From: a virus
Virus record (IMG/VR): IMGVR_UViG_3300034418_003025
Coordinates: 1 to 30,346 of that record
Direction: 5' to 3' (one strand)
Length of the DNA stretch: 30,346 nucleotides
Part shown: positions 1,798 through 30,346 of the stretch, piece by piece
Numbering within the stretch: position 1 is the stretch's first letter
How the letters are laid out: every line of letters begins with the position of its first letter
The notes under the pieces: generated by a model
The model's input: only the letters and a program-made list of their open reading frames with translations
Databases searched by the model: none
Told to the model about the DNA's origin: nothing
Program-made: the position numbers and the translations under genes

Positions 1798-3813
1798 ATG
1801 ATTTACTTCCTAACTAATCAAAGAGAGATTGAAATAGAATCCAATTCTGACATCGTACTATCTGATAAACAAACCGCATGGGATTTTATTAATTCTCTTG
1901 ATGAGATAGCAGTTGACACTGAGACTACAGGGTTTGATCCTTATAGTTGTGAGATGTTAAGTGCTCAGTTAGGTAATGAGGTACATCAAGTGGTCTTAGA
2001 CTTATCTGATACTCATAATCATTACTTCTTAAAACAAGTAATAGAGCATAATAAAGATAAGGTGTTTTTATTTCAGAATGCAAAGTTTGATTTAAGATTT
2101 CTTATGGCTAAGGGGATATTTATTGACAGAGTATATGATACGTTCTTAGCAGAACAAGTCTTATACAATGGCATTAAAGATCACCGTAAAGGTTTAGATG
2201 CCCTAGCTATGAGATATCTTAATGAGAGCTTAGATAAATCTATACGAGGAGATATCCATAAACATGGCCTTACTTATGAAGTAATTAAGTATGCTGCTGA
2301 TGACGTAAGGGTATTACCTGGTATAAAAGCCAAGCAAAGAGAAAGAGCTTTAGAAAAAGAATTAGGTAAAGCTATCTCTTTGGAGAATTTATTTGTAGTA
2401 GCGCTAGCCTATACAGAAATGTGTGGCATTAAAATTAACCTAGAGGATTGGGAGAAGAAGTGTAAAGAGGATGATGCTGTTATGCATAGTTATATATCTA
2501 AACTAGATGAATGGATTTTATCTAGGAAAGATGAGTATCCTGAGTATATTGAGAATCAATTAGATTTATTTTCTGATGAATTAAGGACTAAGATTAATTG
2601 GAATAGTCAAAAACAATTGATCCCTATCTTTAAGAATCTAGGATTAAATCTAGAGGTAAAGGATAAAGTCACTGGGAAACTAAAAGATTCTATAGAAGAT
2701 TCTGTTATTAGAACCCAGAAAGATAAATCTGACTTAGTAAAAATATACTTAGACTATACTAAATCCTCTAAGGTTGTTTCTACTTATGGCAGAAACTTCA
2801 TTAATAATGTTAGTGAGGTTACTGGTAGAGTACATACTTCTTTTAAACAAATACTTAAGACAGGTAGAATAAGTAGTTCTCCTAATATTCAAAATATTCC
2901 AGCAGTCCCTGAAGATTCTGAAAGGACTAAGGAACTATATGAAAGGGAATGTTTTACGCCTGAAGAAGGTAATGTGTTTATTGATAGTGATTACTCTTCA
3001 CAGGAGTCTGTCATACTTGCTAACTTTTCTATGGAGCCTAAGCTTATAGAGTTTTATAACTCTGGAGCTTCTGATCTTCATTCTTTTGTTGCTAAAGCTT
3101 TATATCCTCAAGAGATAGGAGATACTCCTACGGAAGATATCAAGAAGAAGTTTAAGACTCTTAGACAGAATGCTAAGGCTGCAAACTTTGCTCTTGCTTA
3201 TGGTGGCACTGGAGATACTATTGCCAAAAACCTTGGAGTTTCTAAGGATGTAGGATCTTCTGTAGAGAAAGCATTTTTTGATGCATTTCCTGCATTAAAG
3301 AACTATTTCGATAACCGTAAAGCAGAGTCTCTTTCTAAAGGTTATATTTTAGTAAGTAAAGTTAGTGGTAGAAAAGTATTTATAAATGAATTTGATGAGT
3401 TTATACAGCTAACTAATGAAGTAGATAGAAAAGAGTTTTGGGATTATTACAGAGAACAGAAAAATAATAATGGGCCTCACTTTGAGGATCTCAAATCAAA
3501 AGTCTCTAAGTTTTTCAAGACAAAAGGATCTATAGAACGAGAAAGTATGAACTTTCCTATTCAAGGTTGTGCTGGTGAGCAAACTAAACTAGCTACCGCT
3601 ATGCTTTACAAGGTAATCAAAGACAGAGGGTTATTATTCACAGTTAAGATTGTTAATTTAATACATGACGAGATTCTTCTAGAGTGTCCTAAGGATATGG
3701 CAGAAGAGTTTGCAGATATTCTTAAAAAATGTATGGAAGATGCAGGCGCTGTGTATTGTAAGACAGTAAAACTACACGCGACTCCTATGATTAGTAATCA
3801 ATGGATTCATTAA
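1798..3813 (+). CDS. polA: Family A DNA polymerase with 3'-5' exonuclease domain
   Basis: This is the replicative DNA polymerase, 671 residues long, without the 5' nuclease domain of bacterial Pol I. The N-terminal DnaQ-like proofreading domain shows Exo I (D40-x-E42), Exo II (N94...D98) and Exo III (Y165-AAD-D169). The polymerase domain has 'GRISSSPNIQNIP' at 356-368. Motif A is at about 396-400 with metal-binding D398. Motif B has R456, K460, F464 and Y468. Motif C is H622-D623-E624. All catalytic residues are present, so both polymerase and exonuclease should be active. Phe at 464 is the residue that, in Pol I-type enzymes, favours discrimination against dideoxynucleotides. Motif A reads DYSSQES where Pol I has DYSQIEL, an insertion-like variation. 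It heads the block of replication genes that follows. Confidence 0.97.
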   Translation: MIYFLTNQREIEIESNSDIVLSDKQTAWDFINSLDEIAVDTETTGFDPYSCEMLSAQLGNEVHQVVLDLSDTHNHYFLKQVIEHNKDKVFLFQNAKFDLRFLMAKGIFIDRVYDTFLAEQVLYNGIKDHRKGLDALAMRYLNESLDKSIRGDIHKHGLTYEVIKYAADDVRVLPGIKAKQRERALEKELGKAISLENLFVVALAYTEMCGIKINLEDWEKKCKEDDAVMHSYISKLDEWILSRKDEYPEYIENQLDLFSDELRTKINWNSQKQLIPIFKNLGLNLEVKDKVTGKLKDSIEDSVIRTQKDKSDLVKIYLDYTKSSKVVSTYGRNFINNVSEVTGRVHTSFKQILKTGRISSSPNIQNIPAVPEDSERTKELYERECFTPEEGNVFIDSDYSSQESVILANFSMEPKLIEFYNSGASDLHSFVAKALYPQEIGDTPTEDIKKKFKTLRQNAKAANFALAYGGTGDTIAKNLGVSKDVGSSVEKAFFDAFPALKNYFDNRKAESLSKGYILVSKVSGRKVFINEFDEFIQLTNEVDRKEFWDYYREQKNNNGPHFEDLKSKVSKFFKTKGSIERESMNFPIQGCAGEQTKLATAMLYKVIKDRGLLFTVKIVNLIHDEILLECPKDMAEEFADILKKCMEDAGAVYCKTVKLHATPMISNQWIH

Positions 3814-3825
3814 ATAATAATTAAA

Positions 3826-4110
3826 ATGAAATATGATCAAACTAAGCTCAAAAGAGCGCTCTATGATAAGCTAAAAGATTTTGATTGGTTTTATGAGGAT
3901 AAAGATCCTTTAGCTATGAGTCACGAAGATGTTCTTCATAAATTCAGAGAAAGTCAGATATGGCATCTTATGAAGAGTTTTCCTAACAGAGTAGAAGCTG
4001 CTAGAATTTACTATCTGGAATGCCCTAAAAATGTATACAATCAACAATATCTAGAAAATAAACTAGGTATTCAATTGTATGGCAATAAATGGATGTACCA
4101 TGCAAGCTAA
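3826..4110 (+). CDS. Hypothetical small protein between polymerase and helicase genes
   Basis: This 94-residue protein is mostly helical and rich in Lys, Asp and aromatic residues. I recognise no domain, signal peptide or membrane segment. It starts 12 bases after the polymerase stop, and its 3' end overlaps the helicase start, so it is likely translated as part of the same replication operon. A helper of the polymerase or helicase is conceivable from position alone. Confidence 0.6.
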   Translation: MKYDQTKLKRALYDKLKDFDWFYEDKDPLAMSHEDVLHKFRESQIWHLMKSFPNRVEAARIYYLECPKNVYNQQYLENKLGIQLYGNKWMYHAS

Positions 4111-13013: not shown

Positions 13014-15218
13014 ATGGAAATACAAAAAATAACAGACGCAGAGGTAGAATCTTCTGACGCGTTTGAATCTTTAGACTTTAAATTTAATGAAGACGCAATG
13101 TCTTTAATGTTTAAGTCTTTCACAGACTCATTATATTCTAATAAGATAGGGTCTATTGTTAGGGAGATTGTTTCTAATGCAGCAGATGCTAATCAAGAAA
13201 ATAACTCTGTTAAGCCTGTAGAGATACACCTAGAGACGTTAATAACAGATTCTTTAGAACTTACTGTTAAGGATTATGGCAAGGGTTTATCTCCTGCCTT
13301 AATTAAAGATACCTATACTCAATATTTTGCATCAACTAAACGAGGTACTAATGAGCAAATAGGAGGTTGGGGTATTGGAGCTAAGACTCCTTTGAGTTAT
13401 GCTAAGAGTTTTTATCTGATTACACATCATGGAAACAAGAAATATAAATACTTAGTAAGTAGGGGTGAAAATGCTCCTCAGATTAATTTAATATTTACTG
13501 AAGACAGTACAGACATAGGTACATCAGTAGTAATAAATTTTAAGAAAGACGACCTAGTTACTTTAAATCAAGAACTGCAAAGTCAACTAAAGTATTTTGA
13601 TAATATAAATTATTATGGTTGTTCTATAGATAATAACTATAAGCTATACTATTTTAATAATTTTATTGTAAAACCTGGTAATACTAAATTAGAGCTTTCT
13701 TTAGGTAGGGTGCGCTATCCTATTATGGATTCTGTAATAGATGATTCTATGTCTGATATACAGGATCTTAAAGGTAAGCTTAGTCATTTACATTCTAGTA
13801 ATATCCAAGGGTTACCTATAGCATTAAAATTTGATATAGGAGAGTTAGATGTTACTTTAAGTAGAGAGCAACTAGAATATACTGATAAGACTAAATCAGC
13901 TATAAGAACTAGAATACAAGATGCTATTGAGGAAATTAATGATTTAGTTGCAGTTAATGATAAGACTTATAATAATCTAGAAAGTTTCTTTGAGGAAAAT
14001 ACTCAAGATGTGTCTGAAGGTAACTATATTAAGTTAGAAGACGATACTTATTTTTCTCTTTCTGACAGGGGATCAACTTCTAGATACAGTTCATATCGTG
14101 TACCTGTTTTTAAGAGTCCTAAAGTAATTATAAAGTCTCTTAGCACTGATGACCGTTCTTTTCTAGCATCAGATTTACATAGTATAGGCTACTATCTTAA
14201 CTTTACTCAGCGTACAGTTAGTTATGGGAAACCTACTTCTGTAAAAAAATCAGTAAATACCTTATATCGTTTAGCAAGTAAATCTATACTTAATTTTATT
14301 GATAGCTTAGAGGATAATAAAATGATATTATTAGACGAAAAGTTTAATAGAAATAAACTTTTGTACTTAGCTAATAATGGTCTCTCAAAAAATGATAGTA
14401 CTTATGATAAAACAGAGTATACAATAAATTGCGCAGAATTTAATTTTAAAGATGAGTCAGATACGGACAAACAGTCTAAAGTAGTTAAAGAGGTATATGC
14501 TTTTTTAAATAAAAAGTTAACTGTTTCAAGTAATATAGAAGTTCCAGAGAATTGGTTAACTAAGTATAAGGAGATTAACACTAATACAAAAAAAGCTGTA
14601 GATAATACTAAAATTAATCTTATTTCTGTAAGCGGGGGTGCTTTTAGAACTAAACTAAGTTTAGAAGACCTTAGAAGTAAAAAGGGAATGATAATATATG
14701 GCACTCAAGATAATAGATCTGCTTTAGATAGCGCTAATCGTATATTGACTAGAGAAGAAAAGCACTATGCACTATACGTTTGTTCTATAGATAATTTACA
14801 TTACTTTGATAATAATCCTAGATTTATTTATATAGAAGATATTAATAATTACTTGCAAAAAAAGTTTATTAATATATGTGTTATAGATAGAATTGATACT
14901 CTAAGAAGATGTAGTAATGCATTTAGTTTTTATAAATTTCACTTTAGCAATAGTGTAAGTAATTTAAGTAAAAAAGTAGATATACTAGATGAATTTTACA
15001 AGAGTAAAAGCCACTACATTGGAGCAAAGTATTTTATGGGAATAGAGCTTGACGATATAAACATAGAAGAGTATGAATGTATCTTTATCCATAAGAACCA
15101 AGCTTATGATATTATCCAGGTCTTAAAAAGCGCAGAAGCGGAACTAGAAGAGGTGTATTCCTTATTATATCCAACTAACAAAATGTTATATAAATCTTTT
15201 AATAATAAAAAACAATGA
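13014..15218 (+). CDS. rIIA: rIIA-like GHKL-fold ATPase
   Basis: This 734-residue protein has an N-terminal GHKL (Hsp90/histidine kinase type) ATP site. The N box is REIVSNAADAN (50-60, with E51, N55 and D58), G1 is DYGKGLS (87-93), and the ATP-lid glycines are GGWGIGAK (117-124). The remainder is long, Lys/Asn-rich and lacks other known motifs. In T4-like and many Bacteroidetes phages, rIIA is encoded beside rIIB; the pair affects lysis timing and overcomes RexAB-type exclusion, probably at the membrane. Here the same order is kept, with a 4-base ATGA overlap into the rIIB-like gene. The ATG directly follows the UDG stop, so the three genes form one coupled unit. Identity as rIIA rests on the GHKL signature, the length and this neighbour. 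Confidence 0.88.
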   Translation: MEIQKITDAEVESSDAFESLDFKFNEDAMSLMFKSFTDSLYSNKIGSIVREIVSNAADANQENNSVKPVEIHLETLITDSLELTVKDYGKGLSPALIKDTYTQYFASTKRGTNEQIGGWGIGAKTPLSYAKSFYLITHHGNKKYKYLVSRGENAPQINLIFTEDSTDIGTSVVINFKKDDLVTLNQELQSQLKYFDNINYYGCSIDNNYKLYYFNNFIVKPGNTKLELSLGRVRYPIMDSVIDDSMSDIQDLKGKLSHLHSSNIQGLPIALKFDIGELDVTLSREQLEYTDKTKSAIRTRIQDAIEEINDLVAVNDKTYNNLESFFEENTQDVSEGNYIKLEDDTYFSLSDRGSTSRYSSYRVPVFKSPKVIIKSLSTDDRSFLASDLHSIGYYLNFTQRTVSYGKPTSVKKSVNTLYRLASKSILNFIDSLEDNKMILLDEKFNRNKLLYLANNGLSKNDSTYDKTEYTINCAEFNFKDESDTDKQSKVVKEVYAFLNKKLTVSSNIEVPENWLTKYKEINTNTKKAVDNTKINLISVSGGAFRTKLSLEDLRSKKGMIIYGTQDNRSALDSANRILTREEKHYALYVCSIDNLHYFDNNPRFIYIEDINNYLQKKFINICVIDRIDTLRRCSNAFSFYKFHFSNSVSNLSKKVDILDEFYKSKSHYIGAKYFMGIELDDINIEEYECIFIHKNQAYDIIQVLKSAEAELEEVYSLLYPTNKMLYKSFNNKKQ

Positions 15219-16501
15219 ATAACACTATTATAGCACATAGAGCAGATGACTCTATTTCTTTATTTATTAATGGCGAACACTTTTCTCATGTATATGACAG
15301 CATAGAAGATGCACGAGAAGAGTTTAAGTACATTATGTCTGTTAAGGCAGACCCTACAGATGAATCTGTAGCAGAGTTAACCCATAGGTTTTCTCCTAAA
15401 TATAAACAACAAGTAATAGATTTACTTGAGAAGAATAAAAATGGAGATTACTTTATTAAAGGTGTTAACTACCCGTTACCTACTGCTCTAATGATTAGAA
15501 TTAAAGATCAACTAGAAGAGGGGTTACCTGTACATAACTTGGTAAACTTCTTTAAGTGGCTTTGTCTTAATCCTGATGAGCATGTTAGAGAGTCTTTGTT
15601 TCGTTTTATGGAAACTTTTAATATGCCTATTACTGATATGGGTTACTTTATTGGTTATAAAAGCGTAGCGTGGGCAGGCCAGAAAGAAAAAGTATTTGCG
15701 GAGACAATCTGCCATGCTTACATTTCTAAGAAAGCTAACAATGAAGATCCTAAAGATGTATTGATTTATCAAAACATTACTATACTAGAAGACGGCAGTA
15801 TAGACCCTGTAGTGGATTCTTACTTTACTTTGGACAGTTCTACTGTAGATGACGTTTCAGAGCATTTAAAAGAGCTGTATGTAACTACAAATAGGGTTGA
15901 GGTGTCTCCTTACGAGTATGCTTTACTCAGTGAAGAGGATAGAGACAATCTTATTGAAGAAGATGGTTGCTATTATAAGGAGGAAGAAGTAGATCTTACT
16001 CCTAATTATCTAGGTAATGCAGAAGAGTTATTTCCTAAAGTAAATGAGTTATTTAACAAAGACGAGAATGATTTTACTGATTGGCATACTAGAAAGTCTT
16101 CTATTAAATTAGGTACTCCTAGTCAACTAGATAGAGATAAGTGTGACAATGACGAAACTGTTAGTTGTTCTAGCGGGCTACATGTGGGCGCTCCTGGATA
16201 TGTTTCTAAGTTTGGAGGTAGTGAAAGTGTTATACTAGCTTGCCTAGTAAACCCTATGAATGTAGTAGCAGTTCCTTTTGATTATGAATGGCAAAAGCTA
16301 AGATGCTGTGAGTATCTTCCTTATGCTATTTGTGAATTTAAGGAGGGTAAAATTTCAGAGATTGAAACTAAATACTTTGAAGATGACTACTCTGAGATTC
16401 AATTAGAGGAACTTAACAGTAAACTTAAGGACTTACCTGCTGAAGAGGATCAAGATCAAGTATCTATTCTTGAGGACAGGATTGTGCTTTGTAATAAATA
16501 A
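15215..16501 (+). CDS. rIIB: rIIB-like protein
   Basis: This 428-residue, acidic protein resembles phage rIIB proteins. An N-terminal part has charged helices. A central block (about 100-160) contains 'LVNFFKWLCLNPDEHVRESLFRFMETFNMPITDMGYFIGYKSV'-type sequence, the conserved region I associate with rIIB (W-x-x-x-L-x-x-N-P, then T-x-x-G-x-x-x-x-Y-K). A C-terminal part has 'SSGLHVGAPGYVSKFGG' (about 321-337). In T4-like phages, rIIB acts with rIIA in lysis control and exclusion resistance. It overlaps rIIA by 4 bases and is the last gene before a strong terminator, so it ends this transcription unit. No membrane segment is seen. Confidence 0.85.
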   Translation: MNNTIIAHRADDSISLFINGEHFSHVYDSIEDAREEFKYIMSVKADPTDESVAELTHRFSPKYKQQVIDLLEKNKNGDYFIKGVNYPLPTALMIRIKDQLEEGLPVHNLVNFFKWLCLNPDEHVRESLFRFMETFNMPITDMGYFIGYKSVAWAGQKEKVFAETICHAYISKKANNEDPKDVLIYQNITILEDGSIDPVVDSYFTLDSSTVDDVSEHLKELYVTTNRVEVSPYEYALLSEEDRDNLIEEDGCYYKEEEVDLTPNYLGNAEELFPKVNELFNKDENDFTDWHTRKSSIKLGTPSQLDRDKCDNDETVSCSSGLHVGAPGYVSKFGGSESVILACLVNPMNVVAVPFDYEWQKLRCCEYLPYAICEFKEGKISEIETKYFEDDYSEIQLEELNSKLKDLPAEEDQDQVSILEDRIVLCNK

Positions 16502-16563: not shown

Positions 16564-19095
16564 ATGAATTATCAAGAAGCACTAAAAGCTGCCAAAGAAT
16601 ACTATGGCGGAGAGGAACTTGCGGCCTCTGTATTTTTAAATAAATACGCAGTTAAAAACCCAAGTGGGGAGTATGAAGAAGATACTCCTGATAAAATGCA
16701 CAGAAGACTTTCTAAAGAGTTTTACTCAGAAATAAAAGAGTGTTCTATAAAAAGTAAATACTTTTCAGATGAAGAATCTGTGTATGAGTTATTTAAAGAT
16801 TTTAAATATGTAGTACCTCAAGGCTCTATAATGAGCCAACTAGGACATCCGTATTCTACTGGTAGTTTAAGTAACTGTTTTGTAGTAGGAACTCCTTATG
16901 ACTCTTATGCAGGTATACTACAAAAAGATCAAGAATTAGTACAGCTAATGAAACGTAGAGGTGGAGTAGGAATTGATATTTCTACATTGAGACCTGATAC
17001 TACTCCTGTGAAAAATGCAGCAGGATCTTCTACAGGGGCTGTTAGTTTTATGCATAGATTCTCTAACACAACAAGAGAAGTTGCACAGAATGGCCGTAGA
17101 GGAGCATTGATGATATCTATGGATATTAATCACCCTGATGTATTAGACTTTATTAAGATTAAAAGAGACCTAACCCAAGTAACAGGTGCAAACATCTCTA
17201 TTAAACTTAATGATGAGTTTATGAAAGCAGTCGAAGAGGATAAAGATTATATCTTACGATTTCCTTGTGACGCTGAAGTTCCTAACTATGTAGTTGATTA
17301 CGATAAATTACTTGAAATCAATACAGATGAGGATACTGTACATATCAGAAGAATTAAAGCAAGAGAATATTGGGATGAAATAATCAAGTCTGCACATGGT
17401 GTAGCAGAACCTGGATTAATGTTTTGGGATAATATGGTTAACTATTCTCCTGATGGAGTATATCATCAGTATAGACAAGTTACTACTAATCCTTGTAGTG
17501 AGATAGCTATGCAGCCATATGATGCTTGTAGGTTAATCTGTATGAACTTATTTTCTGTAGTCGAAGAGCCTTTTACTATATACTCTGAGATTAATTATGA
17601 TTTGTTATATGACATAGCATATAGAATGCAGCTATTAGCAGATACTGTAGTAGACTTAGAGGTAAATAAGATTGTAAAAATCTTAGATAAAATAGAAGAA
17701 GACCCAGAGCCAGAGGAAGTTAAATATACTGAGTTTAATCTTTGGAAAAAAGTTTTAGAGACTGCACAAAATTCTCGAAGAACAGGTACTGGCTTTACTG
17801 CATTAGGAGATATGATTGCTGCCTTAGGGTTAAAGTATGATTCTCCAGAAGCAATGAAGGTAATTGAAAAGGTTATGCGTACTAAACTTAGAGCAGAATT
17901 AAATGCATCTATAGATTTAGCTAAAGAAAATGGTCCTTTTGAAGGTTGGAACCCTTCTCTTGAGGTAGAAGCTTCAGAAGATCCTAATAGTTTTTATCAT
18001 ACTATTTGTACTGAGTTCCCTGTAGAGTGGGTAAGGATGTTAGAGAATGGTAGAAGAAATGTATCTTGGTCTACTGTTGCCCCTACAGGTACAGTGTCTT
18101 TAATGACTCAAACTACTTCAGGACTTGAGCCTTTATTTATGGCGTATTATATGCGACGTAAGAAAGTTAATCCTAACGATGAAGATTCACGAGTAGATTT
18201 TACAGATCAAAATGGAGATACTTGGCAAGAATTTCCAGTTTTACATCCTAAGTTTAAAGAGTGGATTACAATTAATGTAGACGAATCAACGGCTAAACCA
18301 ATTGAGGACTACTCTGAGGCTGAACTTAAAGAGTTATTTGAAAAGTCTCCTTGGTATAAATCTACAGCTAATGACATTGATTGGATTCAAAGAGTAGAGA
18401 TTCAAGGTCTTATACAGAAGTACATTACTCATAGTATTTCTTCTACTATTAATTTACCTAATGATGTAAAAGAAGAAGAGGTATCTGAGATTTACTTGGA
18501 GTCATGGCATAAGGGATTAAAAGGAATTACTGTTTACAGAGATGGATCTAGAAGTGGAGTGCTAGTATCTAGCGATTCTTCTCCTGAATCATTTAAGTAT
18601 AGTGATGCTCCTAAACGTCCTAAGTGCCTGCCTGTAGATATTTATACTACTGTTAGTAAGGGCAAGAAGTGGAATGTAATTGTAGGACTTTATGATAGTA
18701 TTCCTTATGAAGTCTTTGCCATAGAACACTTTACTAATAAAGAAAAAGGTGAGCTATGTAAAGTCAGCAGAGGGCATTATGATTTAGTACAAGGAGAAGA
18801 ATTAATTTTAGAAAATATAACATCTAAGATGACCGCTGAGGAAGATGCTTTAACTAGAATGGTATCTACTGCATTAAGACATGGGGCTGATATTACTTTT
18901 ATAGTAGAGCAGCTTAATAAGTCTTTTGGAGATATTACTTCTTTTGGAAAAGCAACAGCCAGAATCCTTAAAAAATATGCTGATCCTGCCTTACTAAATA
19001 AAGGAGTTACCTGCAATGAATGTGGGTCTTCTAATGTAGTATTTGAAGAGGGTTGCTATAATTGCAAGGACTGCGGGGCATCTGGGTGCTCTTAA
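16564..19095 (+). CDS. nrdJ: Class II (adenosylcobalamin-dependent) ribonucleotide reductase
   Basis: This enzyme reduces ribonucleotides to deoxyribonucleotides for DNA synthesis. The 843-residue chain has the catalytic set: C105 in GSLSNCF, N309-P-C311-S-E313, and C322 in ACRLICMNL. It also has 'RRGGVGIDIS' (131-140), 'RTGTGFTALGDMIAALG' and 'APTGTVSLM'. No ATP-cone precedes the barrel. The opening 'LAASVFLNKYAVKN...EDTPDKMHRRL' is typical of B12-dependent NrdJ, and no radical-generating NrdB gene is nearby, supporting class II. The last ~29 residues form a Cys-rich tail (C-x-x-C...C-x-x-C-x-x-x-x-C) resembling a zinc ribbon or redox tail used to regenerate the active-site disulfide. The enzyme would depend on host cobalamin. 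It leads the second + strand unit. Confidence 0.94.
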   Translation: MNYQEALKAAKEYYGGEELAASVFLNKYAVKNPSGEYEEDTPDKMHRRLSKEFYSEIKECSIKSKYFSDEESVYELFKDFKYVVPQGSIMSQLGHPYSTGSLSNCFVVGTPYDSYAGILQKDQELVQLMKRRGGVGIDISTLRPDTTPVKNAAGSSTGAVSFMHRFSNTTREVAQNGRRGALMISMDINHPDVLDFIKIKRDLTQVTGANISIKLNDEFMKAVEEDKDYILRFPCDAEVPNYVVDYDKLLEINTDEDTVHIRRIKAREYWDEIIKSAHGVAEPGLMFWDNMVNYSPDGVYHQYRQVTTNPCSEIAMQPYDACRLICMNLFSVVEEPFTIYSEINYDLLYDIAYRMQLLADTVVDLEVNKIVKILDKIEEDPEPEEVKYTEFNLWKKVLETAQNSRRTGTGFTALGDMIAALGLKYDSPEAMKVIEKVMRTKLRAELNASIDLAKENGPFEGWNPSLEVEASEDPNSFYHTICTEFPVEWVRMLENGRRNVSWSTVAPTGTVSLMTQTTSGLEPLFMAYYMRRKKVNPNDEDSRVDFTDQNGDTWQEFPVLHPKFKEWITINVDESTAKPIEDYSEAELKELFEKSPWYKSTANDIDWIQRVEIQGLIQKYITHSISSTINLPNDVKEEEVSEIYLESWHKGLKGITVYRDGSRSGVLVSSDSSPESFKYSDAPKRPKCLPVDIYTTVSKGKKWNVIVGLYDSIPYEVFAIEHFTNKEKGELCKVSRGHYDLVQGEELILENITSKMTAEEDALTRMVSTALRHGADITFIVEQLNKSFGDITSFGKATARILKKYADPALLNKGVTCNECGSSNVVFEEGCYNCKDCGASGCS

Positions 19096-21879: not shown

Positions 21880-24800
21880 TTACTTATCTTCTTCTGAAAA
21901 GATAAAGTAAGTGGTTCCATAAATAGGATTAAGACCTTTTTCTAGTACCATAGATTCTAAGTAACTATTCTTTATTTGGGGAGACCCTAGCTCATATAAG
22001 TTTTTAGCATATACTGAGCGTATTAATTGTTTCTCGAATCTAGTCATTCCCTTGTATTGGCCTCTTTCTAAGTCATCCCAATTAAGCATCCATTGTAAAT
22101 CTGCAAATGATTCTACAACATTGATACCTGCAGCAGGAGATTTAAGTACTTCCATTAATGTAAAAGGAGACCAGAAAGCTCTTTGCTCTAGCAATACCCT
22201 TGAGGTTTGATAGGCACTGTACTGTAACCACCACATATCATCATCATCTTCTGAGGCTATTGCATTTACTGCAGCTCCTAGTATACTTAATACACTTAAT
22301 GCACCAAGGTCTGCTGATACCCTTAAAATATTAATCTTTTGATAGGGCTTTAGATCTTTCCAAAATGTCTTTAACAAAGCAGGATTTCCTTGTGCGGCAG
22401 CGCGTATTGCTGAGTATAATTCTTTATCTGTAAGCAGGCTTCCAACAGTCCTGTAAGTACCTTCTTCTGTTAATCCAGTTAAAGGAGATGTATGCCTTCT
22501 GTGGAATCTATGTTCTATCCCATTAATTAACCATCCTCTGTGCATACCTGCAAAACGAGATAAAGCATTACGATTAAAGTTATTTTTATCTAAACTACCT
22601 TGTTCCCCCTTTAATCTAGGAGAAAGCTCTGCTACTATATCTCTAAATCTAAATAGATCTTTTTTATCTACTCCTGATACAACTCCGTCTTTGATTTTTA
22701 TCTTATTATATAAAGAGTTGCTTCTATTAGCTTTCCATATTTCTTCAGTAGCCCCTTTTTGCGCTAGGTATTCTTCTTTCAAGTAAAGCTTGCCATCAAT
22801 ATATCTTAAGTTATCAGCTATTGCTATTGTTAAGGTAGCTTGGCGAGTGCCGTCTAATACTGAGTAAGGAGCATACGCCAAATCATCTAAGGTTATCCTT
22901 GCTCCTTTTGCTTTAAACCTTAATAATTCAGCCTCATTATCAAACCCAGTTCCCACATACTTCATTATAAGGGAAAGCTTATTTGTTTTAAGCCTCTTCC
23001 CTACATCATTCATAATGCCTGGTAAATTCTTTACTGCTTCTGCTTGAGAATATCCTATAGAGTCTTTTGCTATTAGCCTACCTCCTATGCGCTCTATTAC
23101 CTGATCTATGTTACCTTTTATAAAACCAGATAGTGCAATCGGTAGACTAAATGCAAGATTACTTTTTTGAACAAAATTGTATAAACCCTTTAAGATTTTA
23201 TCAACTTGTACTTCTTTCCCTAAAATCTTTGCAGTCATTGATTCTTCAGACTCCCCAAATAAATAAATATTTAAGAAGTTTTCTAACAGCTCATAAGTTT
23301 TAGTAGCCTCTCCAGTTATGTCTGCTTTAGTTCCTTTCTTAGTTTTAAATTCTTGCCTAGCGACTGCTCTTTGTAATGCTTCTAACTCTGAACGAGAGTT
23401 TACTGCTTCCTTGTACCCCGTAGACATTTTTGCAAACTTTATCATACTTGCAGTCAAGTCTTTACTTAGTATTTTAGGATCTATTTTATTAGTGTAGTAT
23501 ACAGGTATAAACTTATTTTTTATACCTCTGTAATTAGTAACCTCTGCGCCATAGGTATCATCATCTCCGTATCTTAAAACACCTTGTTTTACTTTTTCCT
23601 TCAAGCTATTGTACCTACCATCCCTTACTAACTCTGCTTTTGAAGCTCCTACTTGGGGCATCATAAACTTTTTATCTCCTGTTCTTTGTCTGAAAGGAAG
23701 ATTCTCTTTATAAGTAGCCATAGTATTTATGTACTCCTTATAGTAAGCGTTATCTTTTATACTATCGTAGGTTTTGTTTAGTAGAATATCACTTAGTCCC
23801 TCTTCTGTGTTATCTATTATCTCAATTTTATACTTAGTCTTATCATTTTCTTTTTCTCCTACTTCTACAACTTTCCCAAATTTTCTAGAAGGGTAATTTT
23901 TTTCAGTATAAAAATTTACTTTGTCTCCTACTTTAAAATCTTTACTATTAGAATTAGTAATTGTAGTACCTACATAGGTTCTTTCTAAAATTTCTAGGTC
24001 TGCTTTACCTAAGTTTCTTATAGTTTTATATCCACTAGTATCATAATACTTTTTACTAAAGTTGCTCCAAACTTTGATATACTTATCAAGCATAGCCTTT
24101 TCTTCAGTGGATTGTTCAGATTCTTCTTTTTCTTTAATTAGTTCAATTTTAAGTCTAAGATCGTTGTAATCAGTAATTCCATCAGAAGCGAATGTTTTTA
24201 CTAAAGACTCTAATACCTCTTCGCGGGCTTGTTGAAGTTTTCCTTGATTATACTTAGATACAACATTACCTGTAAGATTTCCTTTAGAATCTTTTTCAAA
24301 CATGCTGTCAAAATCAAAACCTGCTCTTTCTGATTCTTCGTAAAGTCTTTGAAGTTTAGCCTCTACCTCTTCTCCTACACTGTTCTTTTCATTATCAATT
24401 CTTTTAAGTATTTTATAAGCCGCTAATAATAATTTATTATCGGTTTTTCTAAGACTCCTTATCTTGTTAGTGTAGCTAAGTAAATCTGTTCCAGCTTCTG
24501 CTTTTAAAATTTTTACTATATCCCCTGGTTCATAATACTCTAGTTCACTACTAAGTATTTGATCATATGCATGTAAATCTAAGTCTTTATATATATTAGA
24601 TAAATTCCCTATAGACCTAGTTGCATTAGTTATAAGACTATTTAATTCAGCGAGTTCTTCTTCTGATAAATTAGTTTCTTCACTGTCTACTATTCTCTGT
24701 AGGTTAAGTCCTATTTCAGCAATCATGTCTTCGTGAGCGCTAAGAAACTTAACTCCTGTGTTAATTTTATCAATATCTAAACTACTTCCATTTGACTTCA

Positions 24801-26646
24801 TAGACTCAGAGTCTTTACTAAACTCCTGTATCACCCCATCTAAATATTGCATGTAATTTAACAGTCCTTTTGCAGTCTGTTTATCAGCAAGGTCTTTTAT
24901 TATTTCATCTCTTTTTTGCTCTAATCTTTTTCCTTGTAAATCAGTCTTAGCGCCTCTTCCTATACTTTCATTTATTACTCTAACTTGATTGTTAAGGTCT
25001 GCAATAATATCGTCTCCTAGTTTTTCTTTAAAAGCCTCAAGGCTAGCTTTCTCTAAATTAAAAAATACACTTGAAGGATTATTATATGGATCGCTAACCT
25101 CTTCTAATCGTTCCCCTGATCTTATCTTAGTGGCTAGTGCCCCCATTGTTTCTCTTACTCTACTTTGTAAGTAGAAAGAATTAGGAGTTCCAAACAGTGC
25201 AGTAATCTTATCCCATATCCTCATTATTAAAGATCTAGTGCTACTTGGAGCATCTGCAGGATCTTTGAGTAATTCGTTAGTAAGGACCTTACCTAGTATC
25301 TCTATCTTAGAATGAGCATCAGCCTCTGAGTCATCTAGTCCTAGTTCTCTTTTATATGCTTCAAAGTAGGTAGCGTAGTCTTGCTTGTATTCTTCTGTGG
25401 CTTCTATTACCTCTAGTAAAGGCGCAACTAACTCGTGGTTTAGTCCCAGCATTGCAATAGCAATGTGTCCTATTTCTTCTCCTAGTATTTCTACTTGCTC
25501 AGGAAGTGTTAAAGAAGAATCAATACCTACTATCTTATTCATAGCGTCTGCTACACCTGCTACACCCGCAGCATCGCTTTTAATTCTTCCTTGCTTTTTA
25601 AGTACGTTTACTACCTCTGATAGCCCTTCTACTCTTATGCCATTTATTTCTGCAAATTGTGTAAGAATCTCTTTAAGCTGCTCTGCCTTTTTTAAGGTCA
25701 TCTTAGGGGCGTTCGCTGATTCTCTTACCCTTTCTGCTACTCTTATGCCTTGAAGCCTGCTAAGAGCTTCTTTTGTTACTCTAGTTTCATAAGCTCCTAT
25801 AGTTTCATCAATACCCTTGTCTAAAGTCTCATGTGCTTTTTCATGTAGTAAGGCAAAAGTCAAGAACTCTTCAAATGATTTAAAGACATCCTCTGGTAAT
25901 GCAACTGCTCTACTACCATCTGCTAAAGGCGCAGGAGTAGTCCAGGCTTTATCCTCGTACTTCTTTCTCATTTGGGCAGCTACTATCTGAATCTTCTCCC
26001 CTTTGTTTACATTACGCATTGCTACTTTAATGCCCCTAGTAGAAGGTATCTCATCTAAGAACTCTATCATAGTCCCTTCAAACTGAAGGCTATTTTTTAT
26101 GTCGCTCATAGAGAGCATAGACTTTACCTGAGTCCCTGTAACATTAAAGAATAACTTAGTCTGTTCAAACTTATCAGGGAACTTTATATAGTATACAGGC
26201 CTATTTGTCTTAGGTTCTGCTTTTGTAGCTTTATGTATTTCAACTCCATCTAAGTTGTTATACTTTCTTTTTAGTGCATTTAAAGCATTAAGAGTATCTG
26301 TATATGAATTAGGGTTTTTAGTAATGTATAACCTTTTAATGCCATCTCTTCCAGTAGCAAATCTAACTGCATTATACCTTAAGGTTTTATTTCTTTGGAT
26401 TAATAGTTTTTTTACATCAGCAGAGGACAACTGATCGTTTGTAGTGTTTGCAGTATTAATTATGTCAAAAGGATTTTTGACGCCTATTAAAACCTCAGCT
26501 ACACTAGGAAGATCTTCTATAGACTTTTTATTTCTAGACTGCCATGCAACTATTCTATGCTCTAATACAGTAGCAGATCCATTAAAGTTTCTTAGTAGTG
26601 TTTTAAATTCTGCACTACTTTTATTTATGCATCCCTTCTTAGCCAA
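21880..26646 (-). CDS. Giant zincin-motif protein of the crAss-like RNA polymerase module
   Basis: This 1588-residue protein starts at TTG 26646-26644, overlapping the RNA polymerase gene by 8 bases; no in-frame ATG occurs until residue 177. The opening (CINKSSAEFKTLLRNF) looks like a genuine N-terminus of crAss-like giant proteins. HEKAH (268-272) is a canonical HExxH metalloprotease motif, with candidate third ligands E281 or E287. A second, degenerate motif EEIGH is at 390-394. Long charged helices follow. A beta-barrel-like insert has 'FKVGDKVNFYT...GKVVEVGE...YKIEIID', similar to KOW/SH3-type barrels. A hydrophobic segment (LGALSVLSILGAAVNAIA, about 1447-1464) precedes an acidic DDDD patch and a Trp-rich C-terminal domain. 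Such proteins are probably packaged and ejected with the polymerase. Protease activity and membrane insertion are inferences. Confidence 0.85.
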   Translation of the reverse strand: MAKKGCINKSSAEFKTLLRNFNGSATVLEHRIVAWQSRNKKSIEDLPSVAEVLIGVKNPFDIINTANTTNDQLSSADVKKLLIQRNKTLRYNAVRFATGRDGIKRLYITKNPNSYTDTLNALNALKRKYNNLDGVEIHKATKAEPKTNRPVYYIKFPDKFEQTKLFFNVTGTQVKSMLSMSDIKNSLQFEGTMIEFLDEIPSTRGIKVAMRNVNKGEKIQIVAAQMRKKYEDKAWTTPAPLADGSRAVALPEDVFKSFEEFLTFALLHEKAHETLDKGIDETIGAYETRVTKEALSRLQGIRVAERVRESANAPKMTLKKAEQLKEILTQFAEINGIRVEGLSEVVNVLKKQGRIKSDAAGVAGVADAMNKIVGIDSSLTLPEQVEILGEEIGHIAIAMLGLNHELVAPLLEVIEATEEYKQDYATYFEAYKRELGLDDSEADAHSKIEILGKVLTNELLKDPADAPSSTRSLIMRIWDKITALFGTPNSFYLQSRVRETMGALATKIRSGERLEEVSDPYNNPSSVFFNLEKASLEAFKEKLGDDIIADLNNQVRVINESIGRGAKTDLQGKRLEQKRDEIIKDLADKQTAKGLLNYMQYLDGVIQEFSKDSESMKSNGSSLDIDKINTGVKFLSAHEDMIAEIGLNLQRIVDSEETNLSEEELAELNSLITNATRSIGNLSNIYKDLDLHAYDQILSSELEYYEPGDIVKILKAEAGTDLLSYTNKIRSLRKTDNKLLLAAYKILKRIDNEKNSVGEEVEAKLQRLYEESERAGFDFDSMFEKDSKGNLTGNVVSKYNQGKLQQAREEVLESLVKTFASDGITDYNDLRLKIELIKEKEESEQSTEEKAMLDKYIKVWSNFSKKYYDTSGYKTIRNLGKADLEILERTYVGTTITNSNSKDFKVGDKVNFYTEKNYPSRKFGKVVEVGEKENDKTKYKIEIIDNTEEGLSDILLNKTYDSIKDNAYYKEYINTMATYKENLPFRQRTGDKKFMMPQVGASKAELVRDGRYNSLKEKVKQGVLRYGDDDTYGAEVTNYRGIKNKFIPVYYTNKIDPKILSKDLTASMIKFAKMSTGYKEAVNSRSELEALQRAVARQEFKTKKGTKADITGEATKTYELLENFLNIYLFGESEESMTAKILGKEVQVDKILKGLYNFVQKSNLAFSLPIALSGFIKGNIDQVIERIGGRLIAKDSIGYSQAEAVKNLPGIMNDVGKRLKTNKLSLIMKYVGTGFDNEAELLRFKAKGARITLDDLAYAPYSVLDGTRQATLTIAIADNLRYIDGKLYLKEEYLAQKGATEEIWKANRSNSLYNKIKIKDGVVSGVDKKDLFRFRDIVAELSPRLKGEQGSLDKNNFNRNALSRFAGMHRGWLINGIEHRFHRRHTSPLTGLTEEGTYRTVGSLLTDKELYSAIRAAAQGNPALLKTFWKDLKPYQKINILRVSADLGALSVLSILGAAVNAIASEDDDDMWWLQYSAYQTSRVLLEQRAFWSPFTLMEVLKSPAAGINVVESFADLQWMLNWDDLERGQYKGMTRFEKQLIRSVYAKNLYELGSPQIKNSYLESMVLEKGLNPIYGTTYFIFSEEDK

Positions 26647-29600
26647 AATTGCAATTATTTATATAGTTTGTAATATCTTCTTGCTCTCTAGGAGATAAGT
26701 TATCCCACTCTGCTTGTTCAAAAGCTTGAGCCTGTGTAGCACTTAACTTAGTTTGTTCAGAGTATTCTTCAAAGGTAACCTTTTTAGCAACTTCAGATTT
26801 TTCTTCTGTTGGTAATTCAACAGGAGTTCCTATATCTTCTGCGGAAGGTTCAACTTCTTCAGTAATTCCTGTAGATAGTTCAAACTCACTAAGAGTCTTT
26901 TTATTACTTTGTTCTGAAGAAATAAGAGACTCAAGTGATTTTTCTGTAGGGGTATAATCTTGCCTGTAAAACTTAGTTCCCAAAGAAGATACTTCTATAT
27001 AAGTTATTTCCCCGTCACTTGCCTCATCTAAAGCAAACAGCCTATCCCCTTCTTTATCTCTTTTTATTAAAAAGTCTACAGCATTTCCTTTAGTGTTTTT
27101 ATAATAAGAAGGAACTTCTCCATTTACTTTTTTTATAACCAATGTCCTTTCTTCTTCTTTGGCAGCCTCGTCTGCTTTTAATAAGAAGCTGTTATCTTCT
27201 TTAAATACGTTTCTTACATAGAGAGATATAAAGTCATCGAATGGTACGTCTACATTATTTAAAAGAGATTCTAATCTTTCTTCTATACTTTCCTCAGTTC
27301 CAAATTTTTCATTAAAAGCATCAGGATGAATTAAATTCATCATACTAAAAGGACTAGGAGTATACCCTGTAGTCTTTAATGCATAAGCTAAAAGATTACG
27401 GGCAAAGCGTTCAGTCTCTTCGTTATTCATCATTGCTAGCCACTCTTCGTGGGCAAGGTTTATTTGATCTTTGCTAATTGCACTCCTATTTACCACAATT
27501 CTGTCTTCCTCTAAACTAGGATCAACCTGTTGAGTTTCTAACCTTAAGGCGCTAATCAAAGTAGGGTAAGACGCAGCATAATCTCTTTTAAATTTTATAA
27601 AGGCTTTATGGACTTCTTCCATAACTGCTTCAGTAGAAAATCTTGCTAGTCCCTCATGATTAGCTATATGATAAGTCTCAGCATGTTTAAATATGTTTGA
27701 GATAACCCTATCATTTAAAAATGCATCAGCAGGCACTGTGTCTAAAAACTTTGTTACTAGTCCTTCAAATGATTTATTAAAGTAAGGAAAGAACTTTGCG
27801 TAGGCTTCTCTTACAGGATCATGAGCATTTTCCTTATACATCTTAAGAATACCATCTTCACTAAAGAACCCTCCAGTGCCTTGTATTGAAGTAAAGTTGT
27901 CTTCTGTTACTTTCTCTACCATTTTGTTTTGGAGCATTACCCCTGCAGCACTTGTAGCAGCAGCTGAAGCATCCAACTTAGTACCTCTTATTACTGTAGA
28001 AAGATCTGCGCCAACTTCAGATAACTTAATAAAAGTATTTAAAAGTTCTTCTTTTTCTGTACTTATATTATTTTTAAATGTAAAGTCAACTTGAAGGTCA
28101 CTATTAAATAAATCTTCTAAATTTAAATTAGTATATCCTCCAGAAGATTCTGATTCTTCTCCCCTGTTGTTTTGTAGTTCAGTAAGTGCTTTTTGAGCTT
28201 CTACTAAAAAGGGTTTACCCGTCAGTAAACTGGACCTATGTAACTTTCTTGCTAAAGGAGTAGAAAATAATGCAACAGTATAATCTATAGGAAGTCCTAG
28301 TCTTATAGCCGCCATGTAGGCATCTGCAGTATTTATATTTAAGTTAATAAATGCAGCTAAAGGCTCTTTAGTATTATCTACAATAGCAGTAGCAAATTCT
28401 TGTAGATTATAATCTATATTCATGTTATTGCTACTAAGAGACTTATACTCTTGTCCATTAATAGTTATAGGATCCTTAAGCTCTACTTCAGTAAACTTAG
28501 CTTTTATATTGTTTATTAAATGATTTACTAAAACTCCAATTAGGTTACCTCCTGATTGAACTCTATCATAAAACTCTAAATGAGTAAGAGGATTTGCTAT
28601 ATTATATTTTTTAGCTTCTTCTGCTTCTATAATTTCTCCTTTTCTTTCTATAGACATGCCAGCTAGCTCCCCTGCACTTTCAGCTTTATACTTGCTTACA
28701 TTATTTTTTAGGTATGCAGTATAGGCAGCGTCCTTTAAATTTTCAAAATGTCCAGGCCCTATAGACTCTTCACCATGACTTTTTAAATTAGAAGAAATTG
28801 CATAGTATATAGAAATCAATCCATTTTCTCTTGCTTTCCTAGATTGATTTGGCCCTAGATCTACGTCAAAAGGCTCATCTACTACGACTTTATCTATTTC
28901 TTTTCGTTCTCCACCTTCATAAAGAGTAGTGTTATGAGGAGTAAAGACAAACATTTTATCAATGTCAAAGTCAAGACCTGTTCTACTAGTAATCCCTTTA
29001 GGTAAAACAATATTTCCTCCTAAGTTAGCTGGAAGGAATCCTTTGACCTCTATAGCAACTATGGAGTATTTAGATTCTGTAGGAGTACGAAATCCTACCA
29101 ACTTTAATACTTCAGGATCTACCTTACTCATATCTATAGTCCCGTCTTCTTTTACAGGGAGATCTAGTAAGTCTTTTGACCAAGCGGGAAGATAGGCTTC
29201 CATTGTTAGCGTATTAGTCTTCTCATCAACTTTATACTCTAAATTATCTGATAAACCATAAGAAGTAAAGTTTACAAACTGGCCTCCTGGCAACTTTTGC
29301 TTAAATACTCTACTTTTAAATAACGCTGCTACTACAGACTCTGCTTCTTTAGATCCATAACTAGAATATAGCTTAGGTATTATTTCTTTATCAGAAACCT
29401 CTATACTATTATTTATACTATTAATAATAGCTGTAGGAGCCCCCCTGTTAGTTAATACTTTTACAATCTCTTGTCTAAGTTCTCGATAGTCCTCTTCAGA
29501 GTTATTTACTATACTTGTTAGTCCGTCACTATCTTCTTTAAGGTTAGCCTCTGTAAGTTGACTTAATAAAATTGACAAGTCAGCTCCTTTTACATTAGTT

Positions 29601-30346
29601 CCTCCTACATTATAGTTAGCTCCAAGAGCTATATTATTCATCATATGATTTCTCATCTGAGAACCTATTCTTGCGACATGCTCATACCAGTGTGATGGAG
29701 TGTTTTGAGCAAGTAGCATATCTTTTAGGTTAACCTCCATAATCTCGTCAACCCCAGGATTTCCTACTTTAACAGCACTTGAGAAAGCTATTAAATCTGC
29801 TTTCTCTTCATTTACATACATTTCATTGTATGCTTCTGCTAGATTACCAGCATTGCCTCCTAGAACTACTAGCTCAGGAGTAAGTACTTGTATAGAGTTT
29901 TTAAGTTGTACGGGGGACGATGTACCTATAGATATTCCCTCATCATTCTTAACTTCTCTTTCTGTAAACATAAAGGGCTTAAACCCTTTAAATAAATCTT
30001 GATTTTGTTTTGCAGTTAATGGATTTTTAAATGCAGTGCCTGGTTTCCAATTTTTGGCAGCTTTAAAATATTTATTATAAGCAACTTCTTTATCCGCATC
30101 CCACTGTTGTATGGCTTCCATATACTCCTTGTACTTAGGCATAGAAATAAAGGTCGCCCCATCTGTAGTATTATTCTCAGCTTTTTCTATAAGATCTTGT
30201 GTAATCTTGTCTTGTTTTCCTGCTTTTTGGAGAGCAGCTGTTTCTTTATCACTATTTTCTACTAAGACATCTGCTTTTACTTTAACTTTTGCAGTTATAG
30301 ATTCTGCGGGAGAAGTACCTGGAGTATTCCCTTGTTTTACTCTTTT
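26639..30346 (-). CDS. Virion-type RNA polymerase with double-psi beta-barrel signature (5' end outside window)
   Basis: The frame stays open from the right edge (no stop, no Met before 30142), giving at least 1235 residues; the start lies outside. Counted from Met 30142, 'KLPGGQFVNF' (283-292) resembles the Lys-bearing barrel. 'FRTPTESKYSIVAIE' (351-365) leads to 'GLDFDIDKMFVFTP' (389-402). This reproduces the beta-prime pattern R-x-P-T...x-D-F-D-x-D-x-M-x-V, with D391, D393 and D395 placed to bind catalytic Mg2+. The 'KNSIQVLTPEL' and 'FSSAVKVG' blocks upstream and 'LSPREQEDI' near the C-terminus recur in crAss-like virion RNA polymerases. Those enzymes enter the cell with the DNA and transcribe early genes. 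The central Gly of the usual DFDGD is Ile here. Its stop overlaps the TTG start of the giant zincin protein. Confidence 0.85.
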   Translation of the reverse strand, partial: KRVKQGNTPGTSPAESITAKVKVKADVLVENSDKETAALQKAGKQDKITQDLIEKAENNTTDGATFISMPKYKEYMEAIQQWDADKEVAYNKYFKAAKNWKPGTAFKNPLTAKQNQDLFKGFKPFMFTEREVKNDEGISIGTSSPVQLKNSIQVLTPELVVLGGNAGNLAEAYNEMYVNEEKADLIAFSSAVKVGNPGVDEIMEVNLKDMLLAQNTPSHWYEHVARIGSQMRNHMMNNIALGANYNVGGTNVKGADLSILLSQLTEANLKEDSDGLTSIVNNSEEDYRELRQEIVKVLTNRGAPTAIINSINNSIEVSDKEIIPKLYSSYGSKEAESVVAALFKSRVFKQKLPGGQFVNFTSYGLSDNLEYKVDEKTNTLTMEAYLPAWSKDLLDLPVKEDGTIDMSKVDPEVLKLVGFRTPTESKYSIVAIEVKGFLPANLGGNIVLPKGITSRTGLDFDIDKMFVFTPHNTTLYEGGERKEIDKVVVDEPFDVDLGPNQSRKARENGLISIYYAISSNLKSHGEESIGPGHFENLKDAAYTAYLKNNVSKYKAESAGELAGMSIERKGEIIEAEEAKKYNIANPLTHLEFYDRVQSGGNLIGVLVNHLINNIKAKFTEVELKDPITINGQEYKSLSSNNMNIDYNLQEFATAIVDNTKEPLAAFINLNINTADAYMAAIRLGLPIDYTVALFSTPLARKLHRSSLLTGKPFLVEAQKALTELQNNRGEESESSGGYTNLNLEDLFNSDLQVDFTFKNNISTEKEELLNTFIKLSEVGADLSTVIRGTKLDASAAATSAAGVMLQNKMVEKVTEDNFTSIQGTGGFFSEDGILKMYKENAHDPVREAYAKFFPYFNKSFEGLVTKFLDTVPADAFLNDRVISNIFKHAETYHIANHEGLARFSTEAVMEEVHKAFIKFKRDYAASYPTLISALRLETQQVDPSLEEDRIVVNRSAISKDQINLAHEEWLAMMNNEETERFARNLLAYALKTTGYTPSPFSMMNLIHPDAFNEKFGTEESIEERLESLLNNVDVPFDDFISLYVRNVFKEDNSFLLKADEAAKEEERTLVIKKVNGEVPSYYKNTKGNAVDFLIKRDKEGDRLFALDEASDGEITYIEVSSLGTKFYRQDYTPTEKSLESLISSEQSNKKTLSEFELSTGITEEVEPSAEDIGTPVELPTEEKSEVAKKVTFEEYSEQTKLSATQAQAFEQAEWDNLSPREQEDITNYINNCNFG

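Follow-up and report, generated by a model that had tools for sequence, protein, structure and literature searches.

A predicted crAss-like virion-type RNA polymerase in which a DFDID catalytic loop is the normal state of its family

The window analyzed here, a 30,346-nucleotide stretch of a viral record (IMGVR_UViG_3300034418_003025), ends in a minus-strand open reading frame (26639-30346) of 1,235 amino acids, whose 5' end is open at the window edge. The whole gene was found in two related, 86%-identical contigs, where it encodes proteins of 3,794 (L002) and 3,788 (L003) amino acids. The window therefore holds the C-terminal third of a gene for approximately 3,790 amino acids and, because the 5' part of the gene lies outside the window, the full domain set of the window phage is taken from these relatives. 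Based on the open reading frame, on homology and on the related contigs, the gene was annotated as the C-terminal part of a giant crAss-like virion-type RNA polymerase.

Predicted secondary structure and alignment with the RNA polymerase gp66 of phage phi14:2 placed a putative beta-type barrel region (DPBB-B), with an invariant lysine in the motif QLKNS, at approximately 29189-29983 on the minus strand. A beta-prime-type barrel region (DPBB-A) that carries the catalytic loop would extend over approximately 28889-29104 on the same strand. This region includes RTPT (29078-29089, minus strand), which corresponds to the conserved beta-prime R-x-P-T and whose Arg and Pro were invariant across relatives, and DFDID (28958-28972, minus strand), the predicted metal-binding loop of the active site, which was assigned by homology and by alignment of relatives. 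The Arg of RTPT and the first Asp of DFDID were 39 residues apart, confirming an earlier note on this DNA, in which R-x-P-T was read as being followed by D-F-D-I-D about 40 residues later; both motifs fall within the interval 28820-29320 stated there. In an alignment of 47 relatives, which were found partly via the same motif, the R-x-P and DFDIDKMF columns were invariant. The DFDID motif was the single match to GAYNNNGAYNNNGAYAAR in the window, and likewise in both of the closely related contigs.

Downstream of the polymerase gene, a minus-strand gene of 1,588 amino acids (21880-26646) encodes a homologue of phi14:2 g065 (phmmer E 7.5e-19; blastp E 2.8e-17), whose annotation reads RNA polymerase associated virion protein. 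The full-length relative L002 showed a weaker match to g067 at residues 64-190 (blastp E 1e-6 over 138 amino acids), and from residue about 1,940 onwards the protein resembled the RNA polymerase of cr111_1. In phi14:2, each of g065, g066 and g067 is a gene of its own, and MS/MS proteomics is cited in their annotations. These sequence comparisons point to a gp65-like partner gene downstream of the polymerase gene and to a gp67-like partner fused upstream in the complete relatives. Annotations of other crAss-like phages, CrAssphage ZA among them, already record fused RNA polymerase subunits. HExxH motifs, as in zinc peptidases, were observed at residue 1687 of the L002 protein (HEAFH) and in the window gene at 21880-26646 (HEKAH); none was present in phi14:2 g066 or in the examined part of g067.

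The rest of the window encodes a DNA polymerase, helicases, a primase, an exonuclease, rIIA/rIIB-like proteins and ribonucleotide reductase. The rIIA-like and rIIB-like genes, identified with PHROGs, are adjacent (13014-16501) and lie between the replication genes and ribonucleotide reductase. Among phage records, window positions 5000-26000 had a single near match, Leptolyngbya phage Lbo-JY46, with 75% identity over 288 bases (16905-17192) within the ribonucleotide reductase gene.

A phmmer search against all PDB chains gave a single match, 6VR4 (phi14:2 RNA polymerase gp66; E 3.1e-14), and a profile of the 47 relatives matched the same entry with an E value of 2.7e-191 over positions 4-686 of 695. 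Since the phmmer alignment covered the same region and placed DFDIDKM on DFDIDKM, the motif was not regarded as a chance occurrence. Strong matches in the viral library were largely crAss-like phage proteins, while Pfam and PHROGs scans of the polymerase returned nothing meaningful because the family is too divergent for them. Structure prediction, which the earlier note had called for, was performed with AlphaFold for a 701-residue barrel segment and yielded a model of moderate confidence (mean pLDDT 76; pTM 0.77). At E <= 0.001, a Foldseek comparison of this model with the PDB matched only 6VR4 (E 7.3e-22; TM 0.68 by query length), over 778 alignment columns spanning the region that contains both barrels in gp66. 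RNA polymerase largest subunits ranked after 6VR4, with E values above 0.01. The model is thus consistent with the presence of both double-psi barrels in one chain of the predicted protein. Together, phmmer, profile and predicted fold bore out the earlier assignment: the gene encodes a double-psi barrel of the beta-prime type, belonging to a virion-type RNA polymerase of the crAss-like kind.

The window protein resembled phi14:2 gp66 in its two-barrel region, alignable across about 690 profile positions, its identical DFDID loop, the R-x-P that precedes this loop and the g065 homologue encoded downstream. However, overall identity of the two proteins was about 23%, and gp66 is a protein of 2,180 amino acids separate from g067, whereas the complete relatives of the window gene have a g067-like N-terminus. 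Polymerases of Crassvirales (for example crAss001 gp50, cr111_1 and CrAssphage ZA) belonged to the same family by tblastn and profile and also had a hydrophobic residue at the position of the Gly of DFDGD, but in several of them this residue was Val where the window protein has Ile (DFDVD in both crAss001 and CrAssphage ZA). Cellular beta-prime, phiKZ gp55 and P23-45 gp96 share a DxDxD loop in a two-barrel active site but have Gly in that loop, which reads DFDGD (PMC7618050; PMC10770324). Fold matches of cellular and phiKZ polymerases to the window model were weak (E above 0.01), and the NADFDGD loop of cellular-type beta-prime was replaced by TGLDFDIDKM in the window protein.

The earlier note had considered Ile at this position unusual, an interpretation that did not hold, since gp66, its own reference, itself reads DFDID (residues 1361-1365) and Ile or Val is the norm of the family. 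To limit circularity, 20 phage records were gathered by tblastn with a 615-amino-acid region rather than by a motif scan. This procedure imposed no preference for Ile over Gly beyond ordinary substitution scores; the weakest matches aligned mostly around the motif, so that some bias toward DFDxD remains. Ile was found in 11 records (one of them DYDID, in Flavobacterium phage FpV4), Val in 8 (one of them DLDVD, in cr111_1) and Gly in none, and one gene (cr116_1) was interrupted inside the motif. Ile or Val was therefore present in 19 of the 19 readable motifs. No paper turned up when the literature was searched for DFDID; the gp66 structure paper lay outside this search.

Viral contigs were also scanned for G-x-D-F-D-x-D-K-M, in which any residue was allowed at the position in question, and this gave at least 120 stretches. 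Among those listed, 36 were new and comprised 30 stretches with Val, one of which was a short fragment with a weaker score, two family members with Phe and four chance matches; the other 84 were already known from scans with Ile and Gly, and at most three of these carried Gly. L242 and L247 were crAss-like RNA polymerases with DFDFD. When viral contigs were scanned for DFDGDKM, 29 stretches were found, mostly in a cellular-type NADFDGD context, and only L208 and L224 matched the full crAss-like profile (380 and 212 bits, respectively). A table in which 65 of 65 viral contigs carried Ile was dropped as evidence because its scan pattern was DFDIDKMF, and an apparent Pro at the position in L116 was a chance match elsewhere in that protein.

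In cr116_1 (L080, NC_055882; about 3027-3906), the RNA polymerase open reading frame broke within the codons of the DxDxD motif, straight after TGSDFD, and was followed by an open reading frame with a LAGLIDADG-like stretch (LIGLLIGDG). The break probably reflects the insertion of a mobile intron or an intein-type element into the catalytic motif; Rfam detected no known intron at the break. Interruptions in the DxDxD motif have been published for the zeta group (PMC7886860).

Among 151 distinct relatives, Ile was found in 119, Val in 28, Phe in 2 and Gly in 2, proportions that do not represent natural frequencies because some searches used the motif and Ile was over-sampled. The tabulation of the Gly position that the earlier note had proposed thus showed Ile or Val nearly throughout the crAss-like enzymes, with Gly rare. 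In a FastTree tree of these 151 sequences, from which the motif columns were left out, the residue at this position changed at least 19 times. L208 and L224 were each placed among relatives with Ile (SH-like support 98 and 93, respectively), the placement of L224 being less sure because of its long branch. Their separate positions among Ile relatives suggest that Gly arose independently in these two proteins.

The two double-psi barrels of the phi14:2 polymerase are located in its single chain (PMC7886860). According to a review, in vitro work confirmed the polymerase activity of this virion enzyme, which drives rifampicin-resistant early transcription (PMC10136315). Homologous proteins are present in crAss001 virions (PMC10172136). 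In view of the homology, the predicted fold and the identical loop, the window protein most likely works in the same way as the phi14:2 enzyme. By analogy with gp66 and crAss001, the polymerase would be packaged in the capsid, ejected together with the phage DNA and transcribe early phage genes, while the catalytic Mg2+ would be held between the two barrels by the three aspartates of DFDID. At the position of the Gly, Ile is the ordinary residue of the family; it is exchanged for Val and, in rare cases, for Phe or Gly. We assign a probability of about 95% to the reading that the gene product is the catalytic part of a DNA-dependent, crAss-like virion-type RNA polymerase with both barrels in a single chain, in which this Ile is ordinary and which would share packaging, ejection and early transcription with gp66.

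A lineage-specific adaptation, in which Ile or Val instead of Gly adjusts how crAss-like polymerases bind metal, how fast they work or how accurate they are, would fit the occurrence of these residues in nearly all crAss-like enzymes as opposed to NADFDGD in cellular-type viral polymerases from the same collection; it is nevertheless unlikely, since the residue changed at least 19 times on the tree and the two proteins with Gly stand apart from each other, which looks more like tolerance than like a tuned trait. It is very improbable that the barrel has degenerated into an inactive partner and that a different subunit, bearing a canonical DFDGD loop, carries out catalysis, a reading that the earlier note had raised because of the missing Gly, since all three Asp residues of DFDID are kept and invariant among the aligned relatives, gp66 with the same loop is reported to be active (PMC10136315), which also removes the doubt that Ile had cast on activity, and no other DxDxD-K site occurs in the window or the two related contigs, which are fragments. 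The search for a second DxDxD barrel was negative: the 3,794-amino-acid L002 protein contained just one D[FYL]DxD, and a canonical DFDGD barrel, which the earlier note had named as evidence against its own assignment, was absent from this protein, the window and the two related contigs.

The window gene is a fresh member of the already known family of crAss-like virion RNA polymerases, and DFDID is the normal state of that family. The main value of this result is a correction: the Gly of DFDGD is not required by the two-barrel polymerase fold, a counter-example (6VR4) has been in the PDB since 2020, and for archaeal PolD the DFDGD motif was already noted not to be strict (PMC4996933). It is unlikely that a near-invariant Gly has become, in crAss-like polymerases, a site at which Ile, Val, Phe and Gly exchange freely with measurable changes in catalysis; if this were true, natural variants would be on hand that cellular enzymes do not offer. 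The remaining interest is small, in that the Ile/Val/Gly exchange is an easy target for mutagenesis, and the role of this loop position may be probed with the natural variants in the residue table, members of one enzyme family that carry Ile, Val, Phe or Gly.
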